Positions 46,707-51,207 of a stretch of 64,000 bases of DNA are shown here, piece after piece. Each line of letters opens with the position of its first letter. Position 1 is the first letter of the stretch. The translations under genes and the position numbers were made by a program. Source of the DNA: Formosa sediminum (lineage in GTDB: Bacteria; Bacteroidota; Bacteroidia; Flavobacteriales; Flavobacteriaceae); NCBI RefSeq assembly GCF_007197735.1, contig NZ_CP041637.1, positions 1,116,001 through 1,180,000 of the forward strand, read 5' to 3'. Under the pieces are notes generated by a model, which saw nothing but the letters and a program-made list of their open reading frames with translations, was not told the origin of the DNA and ran no database searches.

Positions 46707-48173
46707 ATGAAGCCCACTAATTTAAAGCATCTTTTTTCTTCGTATGATGGTAATGAAAATTTATTTGATGAAATTTTCGATAAAAAACAAAATGTTAGAC
46801 AGGTATATCAGAAGTTATTCGATATATATAATGATCAATCTATTGAAGATTTTATCAATTTAAACAATAAGGCTAAAACATCTTTTTTTAATCAGGGAAT
46901 TACATTCCAAGTTTATAATGATGCTAAAGCTCAGGAAAAAATATTTCCTTTCGATTTGTTTCCAAGGATTATTGATGCCGACGAGTGGAAAACTATAGAA
47001 CAAGGGGTTATTCAGCGCTGTAAGGCTTTAAATGCGTTTATTTGGGATGTTTATCACGATAAAAATATTATCAAAGCTGGGTTGGTACCTATAGAGTTAA
47101 TAAGCTCTTCTGCTAATTATTTAAGACAAATGGATAATTTAGATCCAGTTGGAGGAATTTATAATCATATTTCGGGAACAGATTTAATAAAACATTCTGA
47201 TGGTAAATATTATGTGTTAGAAGATAATATTAGGTGTCCATCGGGTGTAAGTTATGTGATTTATAATCGTAATGCTTTAAAACGGTCGTTATTTGGTGTT
47301 TTTAATCATTATAATATACATACCGTAACCGATTACTCAGAAAATTTATTAGATATTTTAGAGTCTGTAAAGCCCAAAGGTGTCGATGTGCCAACTTGTG
47401 TAGTTATTACACCAGGTGTTTATAATTCTGCTTATTTTGAACATTCATATTTAGCTAAAACCATGGGGATCGAATTGGTTGAAGGGCGGGATTTAGTGGT
47501 TGAAAATGATTTTGTTTACATGAAAACCATTAGTGGTCTTAAGCGTGTAGATGTTATTTATAGACGTATAGATGATACTTTTCTGGATCCTTTAGAGTTT
47601 AGAAAAGATTCGGCCATTGGTGTTCCAGGATTATTTTCTGCATATAAAAATGGAAATGTTACCTTGGTAAATGCACCAGGTACAGGTGTTGCAGATGACA
47701 AAGCCATATATACATATATGCCTGAAATTATTAAATTTTATTTAGGTGAAACACCTATTTTAAATAATGTACATACGTATCATTGTAGTAGGCCAACAGA
47801 TTTAAAATATGTATTAGAAAATATCCATAATCTAGTGGTAAAACCTGTAGATGAAGCAGGTGGTTATGGTATTTCTATAGGAAATAAACTTACTAAAGCA
47901 GAAATTGAAGCTGTTAAAAAAGTCATTCTTCAAAATCCAAGAAAATATATAGCACAACCTATCATGTCGCTTTCAGTTCATGCTACTTATATTGAAGATT
48001 GCCAGTCTTTCGAGCAACGTCACGTAGATTTAAGAACGTTTACTTTATTAGGGCAAGATAAAGAGTTTGTGTTAAAAGGAGGTTTAACACGTGTAGCTTT
48101 AAAAAAAGGTAATTTAATAGTGAATTCGTCTCAAGGAGGTGGATCAAAAGACACTTGGGTTTTAAAAAAATAA
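46707..48173 (+). CDS. Circularly permuted ATP-grasp family protein
   Basis: The 488-residue protein carries blocks of the DUF404/DUF407-type circularly permuted ATP-grasp: YHDKNIIKAGLVP, DLIKHSDGKYYVLEDNIRCPSGVSYVIYNR, VVITPGVYNSAYFEHSYLAKTMGIELVEGRDL, PTDLKYVLENIHNLVVKPVDEAGGYGISIG, and ERHVDLRTFTLLG near the C-terminus. ATP-grasp enzymes form carboxyl-amine bonds through acyl phosphates; this family is predicted to make or modify peptides, but no substrate has been shown. It is followed after 7 bases by the alpha-E gene and then a transglutaminase-like gene, the usual three-gene context. Confidence 0.93.
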   Translation: MKPTNLKHLFSSYDGNENLFDEIFDKKQNVRQVYQKLFDIYNDQSIEDFINLNNKAKTSFFNQGITFQVYNDAKAQEKIFPFDLFPRIIDADEWKTIEQGVIQRCKALNAFIWDVYHDKNIIKAGLVPIELISSSANYLRQMDNLDPVGGIYNHISGTDLIKHSDGKYYVLEDNIRCPSGVSYVIYNRNALKRSLFGVFNHYNIHTVTDYSENLLDILESVKPKGVDVPTCVVITPGVYNSAYFEHSYLAKTMGIELVEGRDLVVENDFVYMKTISGLKRVDVIYRRIDDTFLDPLEFRKDSAIGVPGLFSAYKNGNVTLVNAPGTGVADDKAIYTYMPEIIKFYLGETPILNNVHTYHCSRPTDLKYVLENIHNLVVKPVDEAGGYGISIGNKLTKAEIEAVKKVILQNPRKYIAQPIMSLSVHATYIEDCQSFEQRHVDLRTFTLLGQDKEFVLKGGLTRVALKKGNLIVNSSQGGGSKDTWVLKK

Positions 48174-48180
48174 TTAATAT

Positions 48181-49125
48181 ATGTTAGCAAGAATAGCCAA
48201 TAACTTATTTTGGATGGGGCGTTATATTGAGCGTGCAGAACATACCGCGCGTTTTACAAATGTAAACTACTTTTCCTCTTTAGATGCGCCAAATAAATTA
48301 TCTAGAGATCGTCAATTTGTATTAAAATCTATTTATGAGATGGTAGGAGAAGAAGATGAAGATGATGAGGTTTTAGTAGAACAAGACGTACTTTATAATA
48401 TTGCTTTAAATCCAGATAAACATTATTCAATTTTAAAGTGTATCTCTTATGCTCGTGAAAATGCAAACAGTTCAAGAGATTTAATATCTAACGATTGTTA
48501 CGAAACCATAAATAAATTTTATCATTCTGTAATTAACTATTCTAAAGACTACTTTGTAACCCGTGGTTTGCATGATTTTACAAGCCATATCATGCATCAA
48601 TCTACAATTTTAAAAGGTAAAATTAGAGGTACAATGCTGCATGACGAAGTCTATGCACTAATAAAATTAGGAATAAATATAGAGCGTGCTACACAGGTAA
48701 CACGTATTCTGCAAATAAAATATAATGCTGCAGAACAAGTAACCTTAAGTAAGCCTAAACGTTTAAAAAAGAGTTATGAGTGGACTACACTTTTAAAATG
48801 TGTAGATTCTTTTGATATTAATAGAAGGGTATATAGAAAAACGCCTACACAAAGTACTGTATTAGAGTTTTTAATGCTTAATCCTAACAGTCCAAGAACG
48901 GTACTGTATTGCTTAAATCAGATTCAAGAACATATCACGATGTTAGATCCCTTAAAGGCGCATGAAAAGGGAACAGCCTTATTTTTAATAGGTAAAATGC
49001 GATGTGAATATAAATACAAAACGGTTGAAGATATACAGGACGATGTTAAGGATTTTATAGCGCATACTTTTTCAAGCTTAATAGAATTAAGTGAAAAACT
49101 TGAAGACGAATATTTCTACCATTAA
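48181..49125 (+). CDS. Alpha-E domain (DUF403) protein
   Basis: The 314-residue, mainly helical protein starts MLARIANNLFWMGRYIERAEHTARFTN, the typical alpha-E opening. The NPNSPRTVLYCLNQIQEHI block is near residue 240. It is a constant partner of the permuted ATP-grasp protein; no biochemical role is established. Spacing to its neighbours is 7 and 55 bases. Confidence 0.93.
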   Translation: MLARIANNLFWMGRYIERAEHTARFTNVNYFSSLDAPNKLSRDRQFVLKSIYEMVGEEDEDDEVLVEQDVLYNIALNPDKHYSILKCISYARENANSSRDLISNDCYETINKFYHSVINYSKDYFVTRGLHDFTSHIMHQSTILKGKIRGTMLHDEVYALIKLGINIERATQVTRILQIKYNAAEQVTLSKPKRLKKSYEWTTLLKCVDSFDINRRVYRKTPTQSTVLEFLMLNPNSPRTVLYCLNQIQEHITMLDPLKAHEKGTALFLIGKMRCEYKYKTVEDIQDDVKDFIAHTFSSLIELSEKLEDEYFYH

Positions 49126-49180: not shown

Positions 49181-50035
49181 ATGTTCAATTATACAATAAA
49201 ATATACTGCAGAAAACTCTTACGAAAACCCCGTGTTCGAATCGTATTGGCAGTTTATGGTTACTCCCGAAAAAAATGCAACTCAGGAGTTAACCTCGAGT
49301 ACATTCGCTGTTTCAGGAGATTGTCCGATAGAAAAATCTATTAATGGATATAATTTTGAAACCACTAGAATTCATACTAAAAAACCGTTTAATACAATTA
49401 AGTTTGAGGCTGTTTTTAAATTAACTAAATCTAAAGTTGATCCAATAAAAGTAAATCCAGAGTTTACTATAGCAGAAGAATATGAGGCAATTAGTACGCT
49501 GGATTTTAAAGTGGATTACGAAGCTTATTTAAATACTACCGAACTTACCACGCTGCCAAAAGGCGAATGTGACACTTGTATATTTAATTTTGAAACCTCT
49601 AAAAGTGTTTTAGATAACGTAAAACAACTTAATGCTTGGGTGTATAATAATATTACATTTAATGCAGAAGAAGCTGCTACAGAAACACCATTAACAGAGG
49701 TTTTAGAAAAAAAACACGGCGCAAGCTCAGATTTTGTACATTTATTTTGTGCCCTTTCGCGTTTAAATAAAATTCCTGCACGTTACGTATCTGGTTATTT
49801 ACACCAAGGCGATGGCTTTTTTGGAGATTCAGAAATGAGTGCTTGGGCAGAAGTGTTTGTGCCTAATCTAGGTTGGGTTGGATTTGATCCAGCTAATAAT
49901 ATTTTGGCAGACCATAATCATGTAAAAGTAGCACATGGAAGAGATTACAACGATTGTGCTCCGTTAAAACAAGTTTTATTTGCCTACGGTAAAAAGGTGT
50001 CTAACCATAAGGTTGAGGTAACATATGAACAATAA
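49181..50035 (+). CDS. Transglutaminase-like protein with Cys and His catalytic positions replaced by Ser
   Basis: The 284-residue protein has an N-terminal beta domain (~1-110) and a C-terminal transglutaminase-like core (~145-265), as in the usual third member of the ATP-grasp/alpha-E cluster. In that family the catalytic residues lie in G-x-C-x-DF-x-H, SHAW and FDP. Here the aligned segments are GASSDFVHLF (S182 at the Cys position), MSAWAEVF (S220 at the His position) and GFDPANN (D236 kept). The fold-defining blocks ARYVSGYLHQ and PNLGWVGFDP are intact. The codons are clear AGC and AGT. It is therefore predicted to be unable to use the Cys-His-Asp protease or transferase mechanism, and may be a binding or scaffolding protein. 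Confidence 0.88.
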   Translation: MFNYTIKYTAENSYENPVFESYWQFMVTPEKNATQELTSSTFAVSGDCPIEKSINGYNFETTRIHTKKPFNTIKFEAVFKLTKSKVDPIKVNPEFTIAEEYEAISTLDFKVDYEAYLNTTELTTLPKGECDTCIFNFETSKSVLDNVKQLNAWVYNNITFNAEEAATETPLTEVLEKKHGASSDFVHLFCALSRLNKIPARYVSGYLHQGDGFFGDSEMSAWAEVFVPNLGWVGFDPANNILADHNHVKVAHGRDYNDCAPLKQVLFAYGKKVSNHKVEVTYEQ

Positions 50036-50096: not shown

Positions 50097-51207
50097 ATGA
50101 TAACAGCAGATCAAATTAAAGATCTTACACACCGCCTTACACTTCTAAGGCAATATCTTTGACATAGATGTCAAACTCATAGAAATACAAAATGAAGAGG
50201 AGCAAACCTTCGATCCAGAATTTTGGAACGATTCTAAGGCTGCAGAAGCAATCATGAAATCGCTTCGTGTTAAGAAAAAATGGGTAGAAGATTTTAATAC
50301 AATTACAACACTTGTAGGCGATTTAGAAGTGTTATACGAGTTCTACAAGGAAGGAGATTCATCTTTAGAAGAAGTTACCGAACAATTCGAAAAAGCACAC
50401 TTACTATTAGAAGATATTGAGTTTAAAAATATGCTGTCCGAAGAAGGTGATGGCTTAAGTGCTGTACTTCAAATTACTGCCGGAGCAGGCGGTACCGAAA
50501 GTTGTGATTGGGCAAGTATGCTTATGCGCATGTATTTAATGTATGCAGAGAAAAGCGGATTTAAAGTTAAAGAACTAAACTATCAAGAAGGCGATGTTGC
50601 AGGTATTAAAACTGTAACGTTAGAGATTGAAGGCGATTTTGCATTTGGTTGGTTAAAAGGTGAAAATGGAGTACATCGTTTGGTTAGAATTTCTCCATTT
50701 GATAGTAATGCAAAACGCCATACTAGTTTTGCTTCGGTATACGTTTATCCACTTGTAGATGATACCATTGAAATAGATATTAATCCTGCAGATATAGAGA
50801 TTACAACTGCACGTTCTAGTGGTGCTGGAGGACAAAATGTGAATAAGGTAGAAACCAAGGTGCAATTAACACACAAGCCAACAGGTATTCAGATTTCATG
50901 TTCAGAAACACGCTCCCAACACGATAACAGATCTCGAGCTTTACAGATGTTAAAATCTCAATTGTATGAGATAGAACTTCAAAAGCAAATGGCACAGCGC
51001 GAAGACATAGAAGCAGGAAAGATGAAAATTGAATGGGGAAGCCAAATAAGAAACTATGTTATGCATCCTTATAAATTAGTTAAAGATGTAAGAACAGCAC
51101 ACGAAACAGGTAATGTAGATGCCGTAATGGATGGTAATATAGATGCCTTTTTAAAAGCCTATTTAATGATGATGGGACAAAAAACAGAAGAGACTAATAA
51201 TTTATAA
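50097..51207 (+). CDS. prfB: Peptide chain release factor 2, expressed by programmed +1 frameshift
   Basis: RF2 reads UGA and UAA stops and triggers peptide release. The coding sequence is joined: 50097-50159 (21 codons, starting [10 protein letters not shown]) reaches an in-frame TGA at 50160-50162, and translation continues in the +1 frame from 50161 (Asp codon GAC) to 51207, giving 369 residues, the normal RF2 length. An ATG two codons earlier (50091) is an alternative start. The downstream part has the stop-recognition motif SPF ([16 protein letters not shown]) and the catalytic GGQ ([14 protein letters not shown]). Without the shift the protein would be truncated at 21 residues. The ArsC-like gene follows 14 bases later. 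Confidence 0.95.
50145..50163 (+). promoter_or_regulatory. Programmed +1 frameshift site of prfB
   Basis: The site is CTA AGG CAA TAT CTT TGA C: slippery CTT codon, in-frame TGA followed by C (weak stop context), and a short Shine-Dalgarno-like AAGG 6 bases upstream of CTT. It matches the E. coli RF2 site except that the SD-like stretch is weaker (AGGCAA instead of AGGGGG). Confidence 0.93.

Follow-up and report, generated by a model that had tools for sequence, protein, structure and literature searches.

A transglutaminase-like protein lacking the catalytic Cys and His in an ATP-grasp/alpha-E operon of Formosa sediminum

The analysed window, a stretch of 64,000 nucleotides of the Formosa sediminum genome, contains adjoining genes on the same strand for a circularly permuted ATP-grasp ligase, an Alpha-E domain protein, and a transglutaminase-like protein (Table 1), an arrangement of the operon type. 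Formosa and nearly all of the other loci examined share one gene order (ATP-grasp, alpha-E, transglutaminase, prfB), and the ATP-grasp gene lies next to the alpha-E and transglutaminase genes in all orthologous loci listed. The third reading frame runs cleanly from an ATG at 49181 to a stop at 50035, as had been stated in the initial annotation made from this DNA alone, and the opposite strand is rich in stops. Its product matches PF01841 (Transglut_core) with 77.3 bits against a curated cut-off of 23, and thus belongs to the superfamily by descent, while the match of its N-terminal part to PF08379 (Bact_transglu_N) is weak and lies under the cut-off. A search for Rfam RNAs in the region found none, no terminator-like site was seen between the alpha-E and transglutaminase genes, and no Anbu-like gene adjoins the operon at this locus. 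The next gene on the 3′ side of the transglutaminase gene is prfB-like (peptide chain release factor 2), as judged by its translation and frameshift site. It starts with the ATG at 50097, the start at 50254 in the list of open reading frames being too late, and contains, at 50160, an in-frame TGA flanked as CTT TGA C, which is the classical site of programmed +1 frameshifting (window positions 50097-50168).

Table 1. Operon genes and diagnostic residues of the transglutaminase-like protein, in window positions
Feature	Positions	Strand	Description
Circularly permuted ATP-grasp ligase, first operon gene	46707..48173	+	488 aa; PF14403 3.7e-159, PF04174 6.4e-140
Alpha-E domain protein, second operon gene	48181..49125	+	314 aa; PF04168 2.4e-78
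Transglutaminase-like protein, probable pseudoenzyme, third operon gene	49181..50035	+	284 aa; PF01841 1.3e-21
Dismantled nucleophile motif: V181A, C182S (catalytic Cys position), Q183S	49721..49729	+	V, C, Q in 56/56 intact orthologues
C190, candidate substitute nucleophile, rejected	49748..49750	+	Cys in most intact orthologues; Ile, Leu, others elsewhere
H220S, catalytic His position	49838..49840	+	His in 56/56 intact orthologues; Tyr, Tyr, Cys in three sister species
D236, retained third triad residue	49886..49888	+	Asp in 63/63 orthologues
G264Q, invariant Gly	49970..49972	+	Q, Q, Q, Q, S, S in six Cys-less Formosa; Gly in L041 and L139
N272K, nearly invariant Asn	49994..49996	+	lost in all Cys-less Formosa; kept in L041 and L139

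In the alignment to the orthologues (n = 63, Formosa sediminum included; loci 66-72% identical to it are from Formosa), the segment G180-A-S182-S-D-F-V-H corresponds to GVCQDFTH, M219-S220-A-W to MHAW, and D236 to the Asp of GFDP. The codons are AGC at position 182, AGT at 220, and GAT at 236, so that the reading of the initial annotation, in which Cys and His are both replaced by Ser and the Asp is kept, is confirmed by both the alignment and the codons. The protein hence retains only the third residue of an active thiol enzyme. Since Cys-His-Asp is complete in 56 of the 63 orthologues, six of the seven departures fall in one genus, and the genomes were assembled separately, chance or sequencing error can be ruled out. 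The loss of both residues would make acyl transfer or hydrolysis through a thiol impossible by the known mechanism, and it is very likely that this mechanism has been lost in the Formosa sediminum protein. Cys190, named earlier as a residue that might take over as nucleophile, can be discarded, being an ancestral residue that is present in active orthologues and missing from some.

At the 59 columns that are at least 95% conserved in the 56 intact orthologues, the protein departs eight times (A21S, T165A, V181A, C182S, Q183S, H220S, G264Q, and N272K), and half of these departures concern V181, C182, Q183, and H220. A two-residue insertion upstream of the catalytic domain creates a CDTC (CxxC) motif with C130 and C133 (49568-49579); none of the 54 active orthologues checked has it, nor does any of the Formosa relatives.

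The triad is broken in six of the seven Formosa genomes found and in one other Flavobacteriaceae genome. It reads SSD in Formosa sediminum, SYD in F. algae (L038) and L039, SCD in L040, SHD in L042, and AHD in L021, while a further Formosa orthologue, L041, is intact (CHD). What is common to the clade is the change from Cys to Ser, found in five Formosa species, and the loss of His in four of them (to Ser, Tyr, Tyr, and Cys). The Ser/Ser pair, on the other hand, is seen only in Formosa sediminum among the 63 orthologues; it cannot be a motif fixed in the clade, as was considered at the outset, because Ser220 occurs in no other species. All 12 more distant class-level homologues have intact triads. 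The expectation that an active-looking transglutaminase is the usual companion of the partner genes is borne out by the 56 intact triads and the unchanged gene order.

Two of the departing proteins deserve a separate description. The one outside Formosa (L139, G235:C4:253244-254080) reads AHD, has Lys in place of Gln183, and is encoded beside an alpha-E gene; it represents an independent loss. In L042 (G151), residues 180-187 are GDSPDFAH, accompanied by MHAW and FDP, which gives a Ser-His-Asp arrangement, possibly a transitional form. Judging from these residues, this protein could in principle retain weak activity.

The tree of the partner and neighbour proteins has the topology (L021,(L041,(L042,(Formosa sediminum, F. 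algae,(L039,L040))))) with strong support, and the subclade of the five Cys-to-Ser species has a support of 100/99 in the concatenated partner tree. The intact L041 is thus nested among the Cys-less Formosa, and a single Cys loss in the genus, which would place the six Cys-less members in one clade, is rejected by the partner-gene tree (p-AU 3.7e-6). The tree of the transglutaminase alone (63 rows) nonetheless groups these six, with a support of 90/97 and one very long branch. The comparison suggests three independent Cys losses, namely Cys to Ser in the ancestor of the five species, Cys to Ala in L021, the deepest Formosa, and Cys to Ala in L139; in all three lineages, C182 and Q183 are altered together. 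L041 might alternatively have regained its Cys, which would be a less simple history. Ser182 is encoded by AGC or AGT in four species and by TCT in L042, and because at least two base changes separate these codons, the change from Cys to Ser may have occurred twice. For the His, the simplest history would be a single loss that followed the loss of Cys, in the ancestor of the four-species subclade. The codons at position 220 are AGT in Formosa sediminum and TAT, TAT, and TGT in the other three, and CAT to TAT to TGT can be traversed in single steps.

The AlphaFold2 model of the 284-residue protein has a pLDDT of 93.0 and a pTM of 0.91, a confident transglutaminase-type fold. The best solved relative is 3ISR (Foldseek E 2.4e-20, TM up to 0.73; profile match E 9.2e-35), a COG1305-type protein of Cytophaga hutchinsonii (PF01841 with a PF08379 N-domain), and the overall architecture is that of the papain-like/transglutaminase fold. 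The Formosa sediminum protein shares the two-domain fold and the length with 3ISR; however, the GVCRDFAH of 3ISR contains the Cys, whereas the present protein carries Ser at that place and lacks a His at 220. In the model, residue 182 opens the helix 182-195, residue 220 opens the strand 220-227, and residue 236 closes the strand 231-236, the helix-start, strand-start, and strand-end places at which the nucleophile, the His, and the polar residue of papain-like folds sit (PMC10318531). The entire chain is accounted for by the two-domain, soluble-type fold, which aligns with 3ISR end to end and leaves no room for a seven-transmembrane fusion of the RloB type. Band 4.2 appears among the weak Foldseek matches.

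Segment by segment, the conservation of the four His-less proteins is close to that of pairs of active proteins of 64-76% identity; position 220 departs from this, and to a slight extent so does the Cys motif. The conservation is 0.92 versus 0.93 for residues 200-219 and 0.81 versus 0.80 for residues 237-262, to be compared with 0.17 versus 1.00 at position 220. The pairwise dN/dS is around 0.2 among close species, with dS near 1 between species. In a self-written branch codon model, in which the background dS is saturated, omega is 0.094 in the five Cys-to-Ser species compared with 0.052 in the rest of the tree (2 x delta lnL about 10). Fixing omega at 1 lowers lnL by 226 and can be excluded; the frame thus stayed intact and omega well below 1 after the catalytic residues had gone. 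A rise of omega specific to the transglutaminase is not shown, as that of alpha-E rises too (0.036 versus 0.013). In terms of summed protein branches, the ratio of transglutaminase to alpha-E is about 3.8 in the four-species His-less clade versus about 1.4 in active lineages, and that of transglutaminase to ATP-grasp is 7 versus 2.7. That positions 220 and 181-183 vary between species is compatible with relaxed constraint no less than with a new function. There is no sign that decay of the partners lies behind the catalytic loss, the ATP-grasp protein being altered at 24 of 286 invariant positions when changes in any Formosa species are counted.

The Formosa sediminum genome encodes three other COG1305-type transglutaminases, all with intact triads. 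Two of them belong to a second locus, where an intact transglutaminase of 302 aa is encoded along with a fused ATP-grasp/alpha-E protein and a transglutaminase/DUF2126 amidoligase protein of 1119 aa. A genome-wide loss of transglutaminase activity can be discarded, because C/H/D is retained in the further COG1305-type copies found in Formosa (the divergent L064 left out), and the catalytic loss is therefore specific to the transglutaminase gene of the operon. The fused ATP-grasp/alpha-E gene is present in all seven Cys-less genomes versus 17 of the 52 Cys-intact ones (Fisher ~0.001, by hand). As there are two independent backgrounds only, we hold this link between Cys loss and the second locus to be suggestive, and it is in the same sense suggestive that the catalytic loss may be tolerated thanks to the second intact transglutaminase/ATP-grasp/alpha-E locus. 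The deepest Formosa genome (G014) additionally carries, at L145:3352-5826, an extra ATP-grasp/alpha-E pair (PF14403 4.9e-159 for the ATP-grasp, 1.9e-65 for the alpha-E), which has no transglutaminase of its own and is convergent to the transglutaminase of the second locus.

The protein has in all likelihood been kept for some function. The most probable reading is that it is a true pseudoenzyme and that it serves the ATP-grasp/alpha-E system as a subunit for binding or scaffolding, without catalysis of its own. That the gene encodes an intact pseudoenzyme rather than a decaying enzyme, as proposed initially, is well supported by the orthologues, the purifying selection, the fold prediction, and the conserved operon. 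The orthologues show that the ancestral operon combined an ATP-grasp ligase and an alpha-E protein with a thiol enzyme bearing an intact Cys-His-Asp. In the lineage to Formosa sediminum, the nucleophile would have been the first to go, by Cys to Ser together with the neighbouring Gln, and the general base the second, His giving way to another residue, probably via Tyr. Throughout, the fold, the segments near the former active site, and the operon were held by purifying selection, and a lost catalysis in a preserved fold and operon most likely points to a non-catalytic subunit. Such a subunit may bind what the ATP-grasp/alpha-E pair uses or makes, be it a peptide or an amide, with no cleavage or transfer, or alternatively it may scaffold or regulate the pair; the assignment of a binding or scaffolding role draws on the synteny and on the conservation of the segments that surround the former active site.

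One could also consider that the gene is in slow decay, another transglutaminase having taken over, and is heading for loss with no residual function. The intact transglutaminase of the second locus, whose fused gene accompanies every Cys-less orthologue, the transglutaminase branches of the His-less clade, long relative to those of the partners, and the extra pair of G014 would all be in line with such a fate, which we nevertheless consider unlikely: the frames are intact in all species despite a dS near 1, with omega far below 1, the conservation outside the motif is strict, the fold is predicted with confidence, and alpha-E shares the rise in omega. It is rather improbable that the ancestral protein was already mainly a structural or binding component, with the active site as a dispensable extra that a few lineages have lost. 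Such an origin would accommodate the three inferred Cys losses under a persisting fold and operon, and papain-like families do contain inactive scaffold members such as menin, the Rad4-type proteins, and EPB42 (PMC10318531), but C/H/D is invariant in 56 orthologues across the family and in the 12 class-level homologues, so that catalysis must be strongly constrained in most lineages. A different chemistry, for instance with Ser182 attacking as the nucleophile or with another residue serving as the base, which the initial annotation had left as an option, is highly improbable in spite of the Ser-His-Asp of L042 and of Asp236, His187, and Cys259 being kept in all orthologues, since the base position differs among Formosa sediminum and its three sisters, leaving no common replacement base, Gln183 beside the nucleophile is also lost, Ala stands at the nucleophile position in two independent lineages, and the kept Cys190 and Cys259 are ancestral rather than newly fixed.

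The reading as a non-catalytic subunit can be set against known systems. Operons of ATP-grasp, alpha-E, and transglutaminase genes, often with Anbu, were described by Iyer et al. 2009, according to the citations in PMC6376114 and PMC5666114; a role in peptide tagging has been proposed for them. Formosa sediminum shares the families and the three-gene order with these operons, but differs in having no adjacent Anbu-like gene and a transglutaminase devoid of its catalytic residues. Work on Yersinia bercovieri detected no specific contacts between Anbu and the other proteins of its operon (PMC6376114); this counts against a simple stable complex, yet the bait there was Anbu, and not the contacts among ATP-grasp, alpha-E, and transglutaminase. 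A closer likeness is offered by the rlo operon of Pseudomonas aeruginosa, in which RloB, an "inactive transglutaminase", is encoded beside the ATP-grasp protein RloC, and in which deletion of rloB and deletion of rloC both suppress the rloA1-3 defects (PMC12239564). RloB, however, also comprises seven fused transmembrane helices and a periplasmic domain, whereas the Formosa sediminum protein is of the soluble type and lost its catalytic residues recently, within one genus. In the eukaryotic EPB42 (band 4.2), the fold was likewise kept as a structural part after catalysis had been lost (PMC10318531), although this is a large multi-domain animal protein in a context unrelated to the Formosa operon. 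Inactive transglutaminases beside ATP-grasp ligases are thus already known from RloB. The Formosa case, a bacterial pseudo-transglutaminase encoded in the operon of an amide ligase, was not described in the literature searched.

A more far-reaching proposal, which we put forward only tentatively, is that in the Formosa operon a transglutaminase-like enzyme became a subunit dedicated to binding or regulation, in steps (Cys-His-Asp; Ser-His-Asp; Ser-Tyr/Cys/Ser-Asp) that would be legible in living species, and that this conversion has had at least two further independent starts, linked to possession of the second intact locus. Within this single genus, the Ser/Ser protein belongs to a graded series of states, for which L041, with its intact triad in a close species, provides a natural control and L042 an intermediate. 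ATP-grasp/alpha-E operons are widespread, and Formosa, where the fold is kept and the catalytic residues are not, separates the catalytic from the non-catalytic role of their transglutaminase, offering a compact example of the stepwise and repeated birth of a pseudoenzyme.
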